From a virus, in the IMG/VR virus record IMGVR_UViG_3300032516_000113, positions 1 through 31,365 of that record: a stretch of DNA of 31,365 bases. The stretch is one strand, 5' to 3'. Shown in pieces: positions 17,434 to 31,365 of this stretch. A program made the position numbers and the translations under genes. Positions within the stretch are counted from its first letter, which is position 1, and each line of letters begins with the position of its first letter. The notes below the pieces were generated by a model. That model searched no databases and was not told where the DNA came from. It saw only the letters and a program-made list of their open reading frames with translations.

Positions 17434-17696
17434 GGAATCACCGGCCCGATGACGGCGCCGGTCTCGTCGTCGACCACGAGCTGCGCGAGCGAGGGGCTCG
17501 GCCATCGCCAAGTCCGCTCGGTGGGCGTCGCTCGGTACCGCACGTTCAGCGCGTCCGTCGTCGACAAGTGGACGAAAACCGTCAGGTCGACGGCATCGAG
17601 GTCGCCGACGGTGACGACGATGGCGGGCCAGCTCGCGCCGTCGCGGTCGGTGTAAATCACAATGCGGCCGGGCGTCGGGGCGGTGATTTGGCTCAT
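17430..17696 (-). CDS. Small beta-rich hypothetical protein
   Basis: The product is 88 residues, with alternating strands (GRIVIYTDRDGASWPAIVVT, VDLTVFVHLS) followed by TWRWPSP and a final strand. It has the look of a small beta-barrel similar in style to other phage proteins of the 'TDRDG..WPAIV' type. It overlaps both neighbours by 4 bases. Function is unknown. Confidence 0.65.
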   Translation of the reverse strand: MSQITAPTPGRIVIYTDRDGASWPAIVVTVGDLDAVDLTVFVHLSTTDALNVRYRATPTERTWRWPSPSLAQLVVDDETGAVIGPVIP

Positions 17697-17917
17697 CGGG
17701 GGACCTCGGGGAGGGTGTAGGTGGACGTGGTGGCGCGCAGGTCGGCCTCGCGCAACAGGCGCTCGATGACGGTGACGGCCGGGGCGCTGCGGTGACCGAC
17801 CACCGACAACACCAGGCGGCAGCGGTGAGGCCGCTGGGCCACGACATCGGCAGGGGTGCGGCACTGGTACCCGGCGGCGGCGCCGCAGAGCTCACAAGGG
17901 ACATCAACGGCCCACAT
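17693..17917 (-). CDS. Small zinc-ribbon protein B
   Basis: The product is 74 residues from the ATG at 17917, chosen for the AAAGG ribosome site before it; an in-frame start at 17974 would give 93. Cys8, Cys11, Cys19 and His31 (CELCGAAAGYQCRTPAD, then PHRCR) form a probable zinc site of the C-x2-C-x7-C-x11-H kind. Similar short 'C..CGA..G..CR....H..R' segments are common in actinobacteriophage proteins thought to bind nucleic acid. It is the first gene after the structured intergenic region and may be led by a promoter there. Confidence 0.7.
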   Translation of the reverse strand: MWAVDVPCELCGAAAGYQCRTPADVVAQRPHRCRLVLSVVGHRSAPAVTVIERLLREADLRATTSTYTLPEVPR

Positions 17918-18008
17918 TTTCAGCCTTTCGCGTTTGTGTTCGACACCATCATCGACGACCGACCACGCGAGCAATCAAAAAAGCTGCGGCGTTTTGCCGG
18001 AGGGTCGG

Positions 18009-18035
18009 TGGACGGACTTGGACACACTGGTTTTT
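18009..18035 (+). repeat. Inverted-repeat arm, left
   Basis: This 27-base arm reads TGGACGGACTTGGAC then ACACTGGTTTTT. It pairs with the arm at 18252-18278 with one mismatch (A for G at its 16th base). The spacing between the arms is 216 bases. Confidence 0.9.
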
Positions 18036-18055
18036 TAGGGTGCGTCCACCGTTTT

Positions 18056-18073
18056 ACGGCTCTGTGAAGCCGT
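18056..18073 (+). terminator. Hairpin, left member of facing pair
   Basis: ACGGCT and AGCCGT form a 6-bp stem around the loop CTGTGA, followed on the + strand by TTTTATA. The stem is identical to that of the terminator at 18206-18236 in the opposite arm. On the + strand it could stop antisense transcripts coming from the left; in the leftward direction it lacks a U run. Confidence 0.45.
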
Positions 18074-18113
18074 TTTATACCCCTTTTCTGTCTCTTGGAC
18101 AGACTTTTGTCAA
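18074..18113 (-). promoter_or_regulatory. Possible leftward promoter elements
   Basis: On the - strand a perfect TTGACA (18108-18113) is followed after 17 bases by the weak box CAGAAA. A better TATAAA (18074-18079) is 28 bases away, too far to pair normally. A promoter for the 17917-16231 gene set is expected here because a terminator ends the primase transcript upstream, but these boxes do not make a clean one. Confidence 0.3.
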
Positions 18114-18149
18114 AAAACAGCCTTTAGAGAAACGACCTTCCGCAGTTGA

Positions 18150-18174
18150 GTTGCGGCCCTGTATCTGCCGCAAC
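18150..18174. other. Central hairpin of the intergenic region
   Basis: GTTGCGGC (18150-18157) and GCCGCAAC (18167-18174) make a perfect 8-bp stem with a 9-base loop near the centre of the larger dyad. It could be part of an origin or of a structured RNA. Confidence 0.5.
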
Positions 18175-18190
18175 ATCCGCATTCCTGCGT

Positions 18191-18203
18191 CCAGTGCGTC
18201 CAA
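18191..18203 (+). repeat. CCAGTGCGTCCAA iterated site, copy 1
   Basis: This 13-base sequence is repeated exactly at 18257-18269 in the same orientation. It also occurs once inverted at 18018-18030 with one change (TTGGACACACTGG). Additional TGCGTCCA cores lie at 18041, 18186 and 18279. The pattern suggests binding sites for one protein. Confidence 0.85.
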
Positions 18204-18205
18204 CC

Positions 18206-18236
18206 AAAAAAAAACGGCTTTGTGCAGCCGTTTTTT
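18206..18236 (-). terminator. Strong terminator after primase-helicase gene
   Basis: AAAAAACGGCT pairs with AGCCGTTTTTT around a 6-base loop (TTGTGC). For leftward transcription the stem is followed by nine U residues, a textbook intrinsic terminator, 62 bases beyond the primase-helicase stop. In the rightward direction it also has six U residues, so it can work both ways. Confidence 0.85.
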
Positions 18237-18251
18237 CGGGGTCGCATGGCC

Positions 18252-18278
18252 AAAAACCAGTGCGTCCAAGTCCGTCCA
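18252..18278 (-). repeat. Inverted-repeat arm, right
   Basis: Partner of the arm at 18009-18035. It contains the second exact CCAGTGCGTCCAA site (18257-18269) and GTCCAAGTCCGTCCA (18264-18278), which is the perfect reverse complement of 18009-18023. Confidence 0.9.
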
Positions 18279-18297
18279 TGCGTCCAGGCTCGTCGGC

Positions 18298-20607
18298 CTA
18301 AGTCCATGATTTATCAGCGCTGTCGTTTTCGCCGTCGTCCTGCGGGGAGTTTGACGACCCCACTCCGCGCAATTGCAGCGCTCGATATCGGCGCTCGCCG
18401 GAAATCTTGCAGGGCTCGTACCCTCGGCTCTTGACTTCTGTGCCAAAAGCGTTTTGTCCCCCTGCGCTTTCCCCTCGGTCTTCACACCATGAGCGAAAGG
18501 CCTTCCACATCACGCCGGCGGAAATCGTCGCCATAGCGGCCCGCTCGCAGCGCTCTTCAATGAACTGCCCCACTCGGTCGGACTCCTCGCGGTAGTCGGC
18601 GGTGGCGTCGAGGACTTCCTGCGGCGCAACGAGGCCCAGGCGCTGCCAGTCGAGGCACCAGCGGACGATGAGGGCCAGCACACCGGGCAGCTCGGCGTGG
18701 ATGCGCGCCTTCAAGCCCAAATCCTCCCTGCCGACGAACGAGACGCCAAACGGAATCACCCTCATTCGAGCCCACAGTGCCGGGTCTCCACCTCTCACCC
18801 TCGGCTTGTAGTTGGTCTGCAAAAATAACTTTTGAGTCGGGGAGAAGCTGAAGAACTCGCCGCCCATAAATCGCGCGCGGATGGTGTCCCCGCCGGTGAG
18901 CTTCTTCAACATGCCCTCGTTCAGCTTGTCCGACGGTCGAAGCTCGGCGGCGACGCCAAACCGGACCCCGAGGAGCTGCGCGAACATATTCGGATGCGGG
19001 TCATTGCGGGCTTCGAGGATCACGTCGTTGGGCAGGGCGGTGGCATAGGGGCCCAGCGCCGAGAACACGGCCTCGACGAGGGTGCCCTTTCCGTTGCGCC
19101 CGGTCTGGCCCCACAGGACAGGAAAAACATGCTCGCGGATGACGCCCGTCGCAGCGTACCCGATGCACCTCCCGAGGTACTCGCGGGTGTCGGCATTGGG
19201 CAGCACCTGGGCGAGGAACGCGGTGAAGGTCGGGCAGGCTGCGGCGGGATCGAACATGACGGGGATGATGCGGGTGCAAAGGTCCTCGCGGCGGTGCGGC
19301 TGCAACTTCCCCGTGCGTAGGTCGACCGTCCCGTTTTTGCAGTTGAGCACCCAAGGGTCGACGTCAAGTTCGTTGCTGGCGACGCTGATGCCGGTCTCGC
19401 TGGCGGCGAGGGTGAGCATCGCCGCGCGGCGTGATGCGGCCTCGCTGCGTTCGGCGTGACGACGCAGGAGAGTTTTCTTGGCAATGTCGGGTTCGCCGAC
19501 AGCGTCGAACTGCCATGACCGTGCGACAGCTTTTGTCGCATGCAGCGCGGCAGCGTCGCCACCTCGCTCCCAATGTGTGCCGGTCCAATGCAGCCACACG
19601 TCCTCGTCGACGAGGTAGCGAAAGTCCTTCCCGTGCATCCTGACCCAGCGCTCAGCGTTGCCGCTGTCGGTGAGGTAGTCGGCAGCACCATTGGCGGCGG
19701 GCGGGGCTGGCTGGATGACCCCGGCGACGACTGACAGGCGGGCGTCGAGGATGAGCGCTTGAAGGCCCTCGCGCGTCCCGCCGGCCGCAATCCAATCGGC
19801 GGCATCGGCGCCCTTCTGATTCTGTGATGTGCTGATGGTCAGCACCTCGGCGGCGACTCCTCGCAGCACGCTGCCAATCTTTGCCATGGCCGCGCGGCCG
19901 ACGTCATCGTTGTCGGGCCACAGGGCGAGATGGGCTCCACGAAAATGCTCGGCGAACTGCGGGCTCCACGTCGTCCGCTCGCCCTCCCCGACGGCGCCGG
20001 TACCACCGGCCCAGGTGGTGGCGACGATGCCAAGGGCGGCGACGGCATCGGCGGCTTTCTCTCCCTCGGTGAGGACGATGAAGGCGCCCGAGGCCCGGGC
20101 GGCGACGAGCTGCGGGAGGCGGTAGGGCAGCTGCACCGAGGCCTTGCCCGGGTACCCGTCGCCCTGGTGCTGCGAGTAGGACTTTCGCTTGCCGTTGGAT
20201 TTCCCGTCGCGACCTCTCCCGGGCTCCCAGCGCTTCACCGAATAGGCGCGGGCCCCGTCGGCATCGAGGTAGTGCCACTCGGCAACGATGCGCGGGGACT
20301 CCTCGGCTGCCTCTTGTAGAGGTATCCCGGCGATGGTCGACAGCTCTTCAAGGGCGGCGGCGAACCCGACACCACGGAGGCGTTCGAGCATCGTCAACGC
20401 ATCACCACCGGCCCCACACGCGCGGCAGATGTAGACGCCCTTGACGTCGTCAATGTCGAGGCTTGGGCTTGTGTCCTTGTGGAATGGACACACCGCAGAA
20501 TAGTGGGGGCCGTGCTCGTGTTTGACCCGCTGGCAGAAGACGCGGGCAACGGCGGCCATCGACGACGCTCGCTTGACGTCGTCGATTGATTGCTGGGTGT
20601 ATTTCAC
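18298..20607 (-). CDS. Primase-helicase (CHC2 zinc, TOPRIM, SF3 helicase)
   Basis: The product is 769 residues from a GTG at 20607 with GAGG before it. It is a bifunctional replication protein that makes primers and unwinds DNA. Domains in order: CHC2-type zinc finger with Cys40, His43, Cys61, Cys64 (VCPFH ... CRACGAGGD); TOPRIM primase domain with Glu181 (TEGEKAADA) and Asp232/Asp234 (WPDNDD); a D5-like middle; and an SF3 helicase with Walker A GQTGRNGKGT (500-509), acidic box VAAELRPSD (about 552-560), sensor LFLQTNYKP (about 595-602) and basic residues ALWARMRVIPF (610-620). The C-terminal 90 or so residues look like a small helical DNA-binding tail. No DNA polymerase is encoded, so it probably recruits the host polymerase. 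Confidence 0.9.
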   Translation of the reverse strand: MKYTQQSIDDVKRASSMAAVARVFCQRVKHEHGPHYSAVCPFHKDTSPSLDIDDVKGVYICRACGAGGDALTMLERLRGVGFAAALEELSTIAGIPLQEAAEESPRIVAEWHYLDADGARAYSVKRWEPGRGRDGKSNGKRKSYSQHQGDGYPGKASVQLPYRLPQLVAARASGAFIVLTEGEKAADAVAALGIVATTWAGGTGAVGEGERTTWSPQFAEHFRGAHLALWPDNDDVGRAAMAKIGSVLRGVAAEVLTISTSQNQKGADAADWIAAGGTREGLQALILDARLSVVAGVIQPAPPAANGAADYLTDSGNAERWVRMHGKDFRYLVDEDVWLHWTGTHWERGGDAAALHATKAVARSWQFDAVGEPDIAKKTLLRRHAERSEAASRRAAMLTLAASETGISVASNELDVDPWVLNCKNGTVDLRTGKLQPHRREDLCTRIIPVMFDPAAACPTFTAFLAQVLPNADTREYLGRCIGYAATGVIREHVFPVLWGQTGRNGKGTLVEAVFSALGPYATALPNDVILEARNDPHPNMFAQLLGVRFGVAAELRPSDKLNEGMLKKLTGGDTIRARFMGGEFFSFSPTQKLFLQTNYKPRVRGGDPALWARMRVIPFGVSFVGREDLGLKARIHAELPGVLALIVRWCLDWQRLGLVAPQEVLDATADYREESDRVGQFIEERCERAAMATISAGVMWKAFRSWCEDRGESAGGQNAFGTEVKSRGYEPCKISGERRYRALQLRGVGSSNSPQDDGENDSADKSWT

Positions 20608-28420: not shown

Positions 28421-29610
28421 TTTTTCCTCGCTTTGACTGCAGCTTCATATGCGGCGAACTCTTCGTCAGTCATTTCGCTGACAGGCTTGGTGGCGACGGG
28501 CACTGCGGCGGCGGGGGCTGCACCGTCGGGTAGGTCCAACCCGCGCGAGAGGTACGCGGCGGATCGGCGCTGCTTGACATCACCCTTCAGCGCATCGAGG
28601 ACAGCCTTCGCGGTCTCGTTGCGAGTAGCGAGACCGAGGAATCCGCTATCAACGAGGCCCTGCCTCATCAGCTTGACCTCATCGCTTCGTGCGACGCTGC
28701 CGGGGTCGGCGAGCTTGGCGAGGTCAGTCGCGATTTCAGTGAGGCGGCGGTCCATGACAGCCCCCTCGGGGCCGGTGAGTTCAAAGGTGCCGGTTTTGTC
28801 GATTTGCTCCTTGATGGCGTCGATGTTGCGGTCGATGTTGCTCGTAAAGTTCTCAACCTCGAGGACTTGTTGCCGTCGCTTCTCGCCGACCGCTGTGGCG
28901 GCGGTGTCGCGAGAGGACCCGGGTCCACCGGCGGCCTCGTTGCGCAGGCGTTCGACTTCAAGGCGCAGTTTCTCCGACCGCATCGCAGCATCGGGGCTCG
29001 GCTGCTTTGCGCCACCACCGAGGGGGGCGACGACCTTGCGCTCGGCGAACTTGGCGGCGGCCTCACCCTGTCGGGCCTTGGCGGCGAGAGCGGCGGTTTC
29101 ATCGACGGCGGTATCGCGGGCCATCAGGACCGTGCGCCAGTCGGATGCCGGCAGACCCCGGGCAACGGCGACACGCTCGAGCTCGGCCTGCGAGACACCA
29201 CCAGGGCGAGAGATGAGGCTCTCGGTGTCCGATGCCGCGCCGGCGATGTTCGTCGGGCGAGCCTCGACGGCGGCCTTCGCCCTGTCGGCCTCGGCCTTCG
29301 CGCTGACCTTCGCCATCTCGGCAGCGGCCTTCGCAGCCTCGGCGGCGTTGCGGGCGTTGCGACTCTCGACGAGCCCAGCGTCGCGAGCCTTGCGGGTCTC
29401 AACGTCGGCGGCGAACTTGCGTTCGGCGAGGTCGGCCTGGGCAACCCTGCCCGCGATGCCGGCGCCGGTGTCAATCAGGGCGGGCAGAAGCGAAGCCAAC
29501 GCCGTCGACCTCGCAGCGTCACGACCGGCGCGGATGCGCTCCTGTTCGAGTTGCAGGGGAACGAGGCCAGCGGCGGCGAGGATTTCAGCGGTTCGAGATG
29601 CGCGAGACAT
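28417..29610 (-). CDS. Internal virion / ejection protein, complete copy
   Basis: The product is 397 residues. Residues 35-120 form a very Ala/Lys/Glu/Arg-rich helix (RVAQADLAERKFAADVETRK; NAAEAAKAAAEMAKVSAKAE). More coiled coil follows at about 205-260 and 235-300 (RSEKLRLEVERLRNEAAGG; VENFTSNIDRNIDAIKEQID), and the C-terminus has EMTDEEFAAYEAAVKARKK. Long helical, Ala-rich proteins encoded next to the adaptor and another ejection-type protein are typical of the podovirus ejection set that forms a channel for DNA through the envelope. It starts 3 bases after the adaptor gene. The first 102 codons recur at 1-307. Confidence 0.65.
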   Translation of the reverse strand: MSRASRTAEILAAAGLVPLQLEQERIRAGRDAARSTALASLLPALIDTGAGIAGRVAQADLAERKFAADVETRKARDAGLVESRNARNAAEAAKAAAEMAKVSAKAEADRAKAAVEARPTNIAGAASDTESLISRPGGVSQAELERVAVARGLPASDWRTVLMARDTAVDETAALAAKARQGEAAAKFAERKVVAPLGGGAKQPSPDAAMRSEKLRLEVERLRNEAAGGPGSSRDTAATAVGEKRRQQVLEVENFTSNIDRNIDAIKEQIDKTGTFELTGPEGAVMDRRLTEIATDLAKLADPGSVARSDEVKLMRQGLVDSGFLGLATRNETAKAVLDALKGDVKQRRSAAYLSRGLDLPDGAAPAAAVPVATKPVSEMTDEEFAAYEAAVKARKK

Positions 29611-29613
29611 GAG

Positions 29614-30255
29614 TCACCCGTTCACAAGTTGGATTTGGTCATGGGCCGAACGACGCCAAAAAATGCCAGAGTCGCGCACGACCCCGAGGGTCAGCGGCGT
29701 CGCCGACCAGCCCGGCAGGTTGATGGTCGAAGTGCAGGAAGCCTGCAGCTCGGCGCGGCGCTTCTCCATCGACGACAACGGGGGCTCGCCGGTTTTGACC
29801 CAGCACATCGACGCGGCGGTGTGGCACAGGAGCTGGTCCAGCGTCGTCAACGAGATGGACGCTTGCGACCAGATGAACGGGTCCGACGACAGCGCCGGGA
29901 ACGCCGCGCGCGGGACGTACTGCACGCGGCAGGGCTGTACCGATGTGACGTTTGCGAACCCATCAAACACGCGGCAGGGCGGAACCTGCAGGACGCCATT
30001 GCCGACGACCAGGGCGACGTTCGCGATTTTCAACGGGGTGATGGACGCGAGGGAGATAACACCGGCCGACGAGGACGAAACGTCGGCCGACTGGTAGTAG
30101 ATGTTTGCGCCACTGTCGACGACGCTCTGCCAAACCTCCTCCTGCGCGACCTGCAACGCCGTCGTGATTTCGGCATCAGAAATCAGCGGGTTGTTGTCCT
30201 TGTCGTCGAGGAGAAACCGAACGCGAACGATGGCCTGGGCGAGTGTGACTGTCAT
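29614..30255 (-). CDS. Probable head-tail adaptor, second copy
   Basis: Identical to the gene at 311-952 because of the terminal repeat. In this copy the continuous operon into the complete ejection-protein gene (29610) can be seen. Confidence 0.5.
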   Translation of the reverse strand: MTVTLAQAIVRVRFLLDDKDNNPLISDAEITTALQVAQEEVWQSVVDSGANIYYQSADVSSSSAGVISLASITPLKIANVALVVGNGVLQVPPCRVFDGFANVTSVQPCRVQYVPRAAFPALSSDPFIWSQASISLTTLDQLLCHTAASMCWVKTGEPPLSSMEKRRAELQASCTSTINLPGWSATPLTLGVVRDSGIFWRRSAHDQIQLVNG

Positions 30256-30635
30256 CGGCGGCCTCGGTGTTTTGGCAGGGCCATCGCAGCGGCGAGCAGG
30301 TCACGGCCATCGACGACGCGGGCGAGACTCTTGTTGATTTCGCGGCGAAAGTCGGCGCGGTGGTCTTCAAGGGAAAGCTCCTGCTGCATCTCCTCGCGGA
30401 TGCGATGACGCTCGGCCTTGTCGAGGACGTGCCATGCTTCCCACTGGCGTTTGCCATGCAATCCGTCGAAGACGCCGGCGCCGTCGCGGAGGAGGCCAAC
30501 GACAATCGGCATGCTGCTGGCGGCGTGCTCAATCGAGCACATCGGGACCCCACCACCGTGAGCACGCGAGACGAGCACGCGGCCGAACGGCGTGTGGTGA
30601 AGGTCGGGGTCCTCGTTCATGGCGGCGAGGTCCAT
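30252..30635 (-). CDS. Hypothetical head-operon protein, second copy
   Basis: Identical to the gene at 949-1332 because of the terminal repeat. Confidence 0.7.
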   Translation of the reverse strand: MDLAAMNEDPDLHHTPFGRVLVSRAHGGGVPMCSIEHAASSMPIVVGLLRDGAGVFDGLHGKRQWEAWHVLDKAERHRIREEMQQELSLEDHRADFRREINKSLARVVDGRDLLAAAMALPKHRGRR

Positions 30636-30985
30636 CACTTGGCCTCGACGACGACGGTGAGCGACGGGGCCGACTTGGTGACGACGGCCTTGCTGATGGC
30701 CTTGACCTTCACCGCGTTTTTGATCCCAATGGCGCCCAGCTCGCGAACGACCATATCACTCACGTCGAGGATGCGGTCGTCGATGTCGGTGGGTGTCGCG
30801 CGGATGAATGGCCCCAGGGCGTCGTTCGCGCCTTTGACGGCGGCGACGATTTGTCGACGTCGGGCCTCGTCCATGTGTGCGGCCCACAGCGGGATAACCA
30901 GGGGGCCAGCGATGAGCGCCAATCCGCAGGCGGTGACCAGGGCGGCGAGGATGACGGGAATCATGGCAAGGACGGCGGCGGGCAT
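30635..30985 (-). CDS. Holin-candidate membrane protein, second copy
   Basis: Identical to the gene at 1332-1682 because of the terminal repeat. Confidence 0.6.
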   Translation of the reverse strand: MPAAVLAMIPVILAALVTACGLALIAGPLVIPLWAAHMDEARRRQIVAAVKGANDALGPFIRATPTDIDDRILDVSDMVVRELGAIGIKNAVKVKAISKAVVTKSAPSLTVVVEAK

Positions 30986-30995
30986 GGTGGGCCTC

Positions 30996-31277
30996 TCAGC
31001 GTGGACGGTTGCGAGTGTTTGCCTCGTCGAGGCGGTTCACGTCGGCGCGCAGGGCGTCGAGTTTGGCGCAGATGCTGCCCAGCTGCGTAAGAATCTGCGA
31101 CCGCTCGGCGCTCGCAGCTTCAAGGACTTGCACCTTTTCGTTCAACACGAGCGTCGTGTCACGAACGCTGGTGATGGATTGCGCGATGACGAGGGAGCTG
31201 GCGACGGCGATGGCACCGACAATGGAGACCAGCCAAAGAGGCACGATCACGCCATTGGAAGTTGTAGGCTGATTCAT
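30996..31277 (-). CDS. Membrane coiled-coil protein, second copy
   Basis: Identical to the gene at 1693-1974 because of the terminal repeat. Confidence 0.6.
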   Translation of the reverse strand: MNQPTTSNGVIVPLWLVSIVGAIAVASSLVIAQSITSVRDTTLVLNEKVQVLEAASAERSQILTQLGSICAKLDALRADVNRLDEANTRNRPR

Positions 31278-31332
31278 GGTTTTCCATTAGAGAACCCGGC
31301 CCCGTCGTCGTCAACGGGGCCGGGGCGGTTGC

Positions 31333-31365
31333 TCAGAGACCGGTGAGGCCGGTCATCACGCCGAT
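31333..31365 (-). CDS. Major capsid protein, C-terminal end cut by window edge
   Basis: Only the last 10 codons and the stop of the capsid gene (complete at 2030-3364) are present before the window ends. This is an edge effect of the repeat. Confidence 0.9.
   Translation of the reverse strand: MGVMTGLTGL

Follow-up and report, generated by a model that had tools for sequence, protein, structure and literature searches.

We propose that the 323-base gap between the primase-helicase gene and the next gene of an uncultured phage is a replication origin of the iteron type represented by P4 crr and the SaPI/PICI origins, located directly 3' of the gene for its initiator. Judged from the sequence and its relatives, this reading has a probability of roughly 87%. 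The gap holds nine iterons of ~10 bp with the consensus TGGACGSACT. A replication origin beside the primase-helicase gene was among the suggestions of the original prediction for this locus, and it is now well supported by the iteron cluster, by the observed linkage of the element to the primase gene and by the observed concerted change of its repeats. If correct, the proposal provides a precise candidate origin/initiator pair for a family of uncultured phages.

The window, that is, the whole 31,365-base stretch of DNA that was analysed, is an IMG/VR record with an exact 2062-base terminal repeat (1-2062 and 29304-31365). The genome unit is therefore 29303 bases long, and its assembly in this record is either circularly redundant or permuted. 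The genome has an average A+T content of 35% and encodes a terminase, a P22-like portal, a YqaJ-type exonuclease and a CHAP protein; a search of the genome found neither a tyrosine integrase nor a DNA polymerase A. Known phages gave no DNA match to the record, and the bacterial genome collection gave a single weak match and nothing more, so that no prophage relative or host was identified. The gene and the parts of the adjoining gap are arranged as follows.

17975..18297, no strand: putative origin region (alignments of 10-11 relatives)
17985..18000: short stem GCGGC...GCCG bounding the conserved block (97.5% paired in relatives)
18009..18035, plus strand: left arm of the dyad
18009..18018, plus strand: iteron TGGACGGACT, outer left arm (motif scan)
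18019..18028, plus strand: iteron TGGACACACT, in 10-bp tandem with the 18009..18018 copy (motif scan)
18039..18048, minus strand: iteron TGGACGCACC, facing the 18009-18028 pair across a T/A tract (motif scan)
18056..18073, plus strand: second hairpin ACGGCT-loop-AGCCGT (weak in the window)
18065..18124: A+T-richer spacer, candidate melting region (composition)
18096..18105, plus strand: inner iteron TGGACAGACT, inverted relative to the primase-side set and duplicated in relatives L037 and L038
18139..18156: central conserved box or dyad TCCGCAGTTGAGTTGCGG (minus strand, CCGCAACTCAACTGCGGA), nearly invariant and inverted in L037
18184..18193, minus strand: degenerate iteron TGGACGCAGG, in 9-bp tandem with 18193..18202
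18193..18202, minus strand: iteron TGGACGCACT (motif scan)
18214..18231, minus strand: terminator-like hairpin ACGGCT-loop-AGCCGT with T9 on the minus strand (sequence; pairing in relatives)
18252..18278, minus strand: right arm of the dyad
18259..18268, minus strand: iteron TGGACGCACT, right arm (motif scan)
18269..18278, minus strand: iteron TGGACGGACT, right arm, 10-bp tandem (motif scan)
18277..18286, minus strand: partial iteron TGGACGCATG, 8-bp tandem (motif scan)
18298..20607, minus strand: primase-helicase of 769 aa, predicted self-loading initiator (Pfam and PHROG matches)

The nine iterons occupy 278 bp (18009-18286) with two mismatches or fewer, three on the plus strand and six on the minus strand, and several of them stand in tandem at 8-10 bp spacing. 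They form two main sets of opposite orientation, with additional copies in the middle. A de novo search recovers 8 copies of one 9-mer, compared with a mean of 2.6 and a maximum of 4 in 300 dinucleotide shuffles, and none of the 471 other 350-base windows of the 29.3-kb unit matches the repeat score of the element. The spacer between the sets is 57-63% A+T against the genome average of 35%, a modest difference.

The locus had originally been described as a large dyad, and its 27-base inverted arms are confirmed (18009-18035 versus 18252-18278; 26 of 27 bases identical, 96%). The longest one-mismatch inverted repeat of the intergenic sequence measures 27 nt, compared with a maximum of 13 nt in 100 dinucleotide shuffles of that sequence. 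The arms are composed of the ~10-bp TGGACGSACT unit, and further copies of this unit lie outside them (18039-18048, 18096-18105, 18184-18202 and 18277-18286). The long dyad is thus a by-product of iteron sets that share one sequence and face each other. Both ACGGCT...AGCCGT hairpins are also present (18056-18073 and 18214-18231). The description of two modules facing each other holds for the arms and is not clearly true of the hairpins, whose 21-mers form a direct repeat (90%); they fit an inverted module too, because their stems are palindromes.

A large stem-loop 3' of a gene for an SF3 replication protein, with a terminator in front, is shared with plasmid pRN1, in which a stem-loop origin follows the replication protein gene and its terminator (PMC4234260). 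However, pRN1 uses an archaeo-eukaryotic prim-pol and has no iterons, whereas the relatives of the present phage keep the iterons and not the long stem. We rejected both a stem-loop origin of the pRN1 type and the idea that the long dyad is a stem conserved at the RNA or DNA level, because several relatives disrupt the pairing of its inner part and its two-sided changes are at control level (reached by 246 of 500 shuffles).

Related primases were taken from IMG/VR, and the element was aligned over 10-11 relatives. The relatives share a conserved block of ~320 bases that follows the primase stop and breaks off abruptly near 17985; the genes on its far side differ from one relative to another. 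The original prediction had called for a search of related phages, and a scan of IMG/VR with the central motif yields 16 stretches, each of which follows immediately on the gene for a primase of this family or on its cut end at a contig edge. The primase gene is directly upstream in 15 of the 16 (tblastn), two of which contain its 3' part only, as the stretch ends there; the sixteenth, L032, starts inside the last codons of the primase gene. Tandem iteron pairs were found nowhere but in the element when the complete records of L038, L012 and L019 were scanned. At 69-74% primase identity, the iteron sequence changes as a set while the positions are kept: the iteron is TGGACAGACT in L038 (11 copies), ATGACGGACT in L037 and GTGACGCGCT in L036. 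At 63% primase identity, L017 carries GTGACAGAGT at the corresponding places, too degenerate for the de novo test, and the de novo iteron score is unexceptional in both L017 and L036. The degenerate iteron at 18184..18193 is followed by TTTGCGG in the relatives and in mycobacteriophage Milly.

Two other readings of the array were weighed. One takes the element for an attachment site (attP) that includes arm sites for an integrase, or for a small mobile element, the latter having been proposed originally. The arm repeats of the P4 attP do lie close to crr, but the genome has no tyrosine integrase, each genome has the long arms only once, and all copies found sit directly 3' of this primase gene or begin where the contig edge truncates that gene; this contradicts a mobile element and leaves the whole reading a negligible chance. 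The other regards the repeats as an operator array, in which repressor or activator sites control the early operon. Tandem and inverted 10-bp sites could suit any dimeric regulator, and the neighbouring gene (17693-17974) encodes a predicted zinc-binding protein. However, that gene is replaced in several relatives that keep the element, and the element lies at a 3' end rather than at a promoter, with no sigma-70-like promoter found by a promoter scan. We consider an operator array highly improbable.

In several relatives, a minus-strand frame encoding SRKTVDAL-KT-ASKSVHRP (18009-18110) runs through the right module without a stop. It was rejected as coding because the frame contains a stop in the window and in near-identical copies, and most copies lack a start as judged by eye. 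The peptide-like frame is probably a by-product of repeat conservation.

The hairpin at 18214-18231 is flanked by A9 and T6 and thus has the look of the strong leftward terminator that was predicted, and of a plausible rightward terminator as well. Its stem is 98.8% paired across the relatives, with two compensated pairs. The hairpin at 18056-18073 is followed by a T-run on the plus strand in most relatives, which makes it a rightward terminator there. With one terminator-like hairpin in each direction in most relatives, the bidirectional transcription barrier of the original prediction probably exists as a subsidiary feature. Could it be the whole function of the element, with two facing terminator hairpins placed between the early operon and its neighbours and the repeats as bystanders? 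The primase gene is immediately followed by a strong hairpin with a T tail, and a second one has its T-run on the opposite strand in most relatives; both would suit such a role. Yet a barrier leaves the nine iterons, their concerted change and the conserved central box unexplained. Moreover, P4 has the same terminator beside crr, and pRN1 replicates without the corresponding terminator but not without the adjacent origin (PMC4234260). A barrier as the sole function is therefore unlikely.

Does the element act as duplex DNA or as RNA? A structured non-coding RNA read from the minus strand, such as a packaging RNA or one that underlies an RNA-based origin, would account for the very stable fold of the single strand (z about -8.6; folded as DNA, z about -8.7), and mycobacteriophages have RNA-based origins (PMC7157519). 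The local hairpins and foldbacks also show compensatory changes above shuffles (reached by 0 of 500). The covarying foldbacks are largely facing iterons, together with the terminator stem, and such covariation is expected equally from facing DNA repeats that change in concert and thereby mimic it. The window has no Rfam match at gathering score, the covariation term of RNAalifold on the relatives is not favourable, the two-sided changes of the long dyad do not exceed the control, and the terminator after the primase gene would halt a primase-sense transcript inside the element. Furthermore, the central box of L037 (CAACTCAACTGCGGA, ~20 bases) is reverse-complemented between neighbours of normal orientation (L037:4194-4480), which a duplex DNA element accommodates better than an RNA. 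The structured RNA of the original prediction is thus disfavoured, and we regard it as very unlikely. The inversion in L037 itself looks like a local foldback inversion.

The candidate initiator combines a CHC2 zinc-ribbon primase with D5_N (1.1e-33), SF3 helicase, Pox_D5 and DUF5906 regions (Pfam/PHROG). Its closest solved relatives by PDB profile are the DnaG zinc domain, AsfvPrimPol, the 7ola primase and poxvirus D5. The match to 7ola, which we take to be a SaPI5 primase-helicase, spans residues 413-746, and P4 alpha aligns weakly over the helicase region. An AF2 model of 290 residues was poor outside the C-terminus, and a shorter C-terminal construct was used. The C-terminal 115 residues are modelled as a winged helix with a pLDDT of about 88 over the domain. 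A Foldseek search with this model returned the RFX winged-helix DNA-binding domain (probability 1.00, E about 2e-3) and also matched the C-terminus of AsfvPrimPol; no match fell below E 1e-3. The initiator is thus predicted to end in a Pox_D5-like winged helix that binds DNA. Among the aligned relatives of this group, TGAC-type iterons pair with AEVR in this domain and TGGAC-type iterons with TEVK or VEVK, a correspondence that is suggestive only, as it compares three sequences with seven and is confounded by descent.

How would such an origin work? In the proposed mechanism, the winged helix would bind the iterons, and SF3 helicase hexamers would assemble on the facing iteron sets. The hexamers would melt the A+T-richer middle and then unwind outward, upon which the primase part would prime and the host polymerase would extend. 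The two terminator-like hairpins would shield the origin from transcription on both sides. We infer iteron binding, melting and origin activity; what the sequences themselves show is the anatomy, the linkage to the primase gene and the concerted change. Several considerations weigh against the origin reading: GC skew, which the original prediction had proposed as a check, shows no turning point at the element and follows the overall trend; the A+T enrichment of the spacer is modest; the de novo iteron scores of L017 and L036 do not stand out; no counterpart of the second site that P4 needs was found; and the layout is not universal, as 6 of 16 sampled phages with distant primase homologues lack it.

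The original statement that no described feature matches the element is wrong, as P4 crr and the SaPI/PICI origins match it closely. Like the present phage, P4 encodes a D5/SF3-type primase-helicase initiator (alpha) with a terminator right after its gene, comparable in position to the 18214-18231 hairpin (t-alpha in P4). The alpha gene is followed by crr, a region of ~300 bp whose 8-10-bp iterons run in both directions; some are spaced 9-10 bp apart, and some face each other as local foldbacks. As a control, the motif scan applied to P4 recovers the direct and inverted type-1 repeats of crr after alpha and the terminator. The two systems differ in that crr is a 120-bp direct duplication, a kind of repeat that was not found in this phage, and that P4 also depends on another iteron site (ori) some 4.5 kb distant, whereas no second cluster occurs in the 29.3-kb unit. 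On these two grounds, a crr in the strict sense was rejected. In addition, the P4 iteron is GGTGAACA instead of TGGACGSACT, and the terminator precedes the iteron region in P4 and lies inside it here.

The SaPI/PICI systems supply the corresponding precedent for the initiator. The C-terminal domain of SaPI Rep recognizes iterons directly downstream of the rep gene, and that of SCC Cch2 binds direct repeats downstream of its own gene in vitro (PMC7581432). PICI origins consist of two iteron sets around an AT-rich region, 3' of rep (PMC6092414). The present phage shares with SaPI/PICI and with Cch2-ori of SCC an initiator helicase with a C-terminal DNA-binding domain (here predicted) and an iteron origin immediately 3' of the gene (here putative). 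Its two opposed iteron sets may likewise flank an AT-rich part, although there are also copies in the middle and the spacer is only moderately richer in A+T. In contrast to these satellites, it has a fused bacterial-type CHC2 primase, extra conserved hairpins and a central box. It is also a phage that encodes a terminase and a P22-type portal of its own and in which no tyrosine integrase was found, and its classification as a PICI, a satellite that has an integrase and relies on a helper phage for packaging, was rejected.

The repeats of Milly closely resemble those of the window. The 3' flank of its gene 72, which encodes a primase-helicase of about 35% identity, carries the iterons TGGACGGAT and TGGACAGAT in tandem and inverted orientation, followed by TTTGCGG. 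Unlike the present element, the Milly repeats lie inside a stretch annotated as gene 73, and no ACGGCT hairpins were seen there. A literature search on phage origins 3' of primases returned nothing directly on point; the origin of Lactobacillus phage phi-adh is said to have been placed near its primase.

Is the layout found more widely? In a non-random sample of 16 public-collection phages with distant primase homologues (about 24-35% identity), an iteron cluster lies 3' of the primase gene in about 10. The 350 bases after the gene are the top repeat window in A9Y, Validus, Milly, Mae-JY28, JNU_P5 and Peas and score high for repeats in AcaML1, R24.1 and B025, and GMA4 has its cluster 350-660 bases downstream of the gene. 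No cluster was found 3' of the primase in Pixelle, Lilbooboo, SanaSana, OscarSo, NosilaM or Vibrio phage 1.196. A DNA polymerase is annotated in four of these six (L063, L065, L066 and L069) in this non-random sample, and it is possible that an own polymerase is linked to a different origin.

We tentatively suggest, at slightly less than even odds, that the gene-then-iteron cassette is a general module of tailed phages that have a D5/SF3 primase-helicase and no DNA polymerase, and that the hairpin pair of the present phage group could provide priming sites for the fused primase instead of acting as terminators alone. The cassette has been described as a PICI hallmark, and the sample suggests that it is common in ordinary phages. 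If this holds, the module would span actinobacterial, firmicute, proteobacterial and cyanobacterial hosts, and the origins of such phages could be read directly from sequence. The layout in Milly and Validus makes origin mapping testable in laboratory strains.

Most of the sampled cluster-bearing phages have no DNA polymerase annotated nearby. In Milly (L060:13332-13793) and Validus (L057:4440-4760), the clusters fall within annotated small hypothetical genes, 73 and 75, respectively, which may not be real genes.
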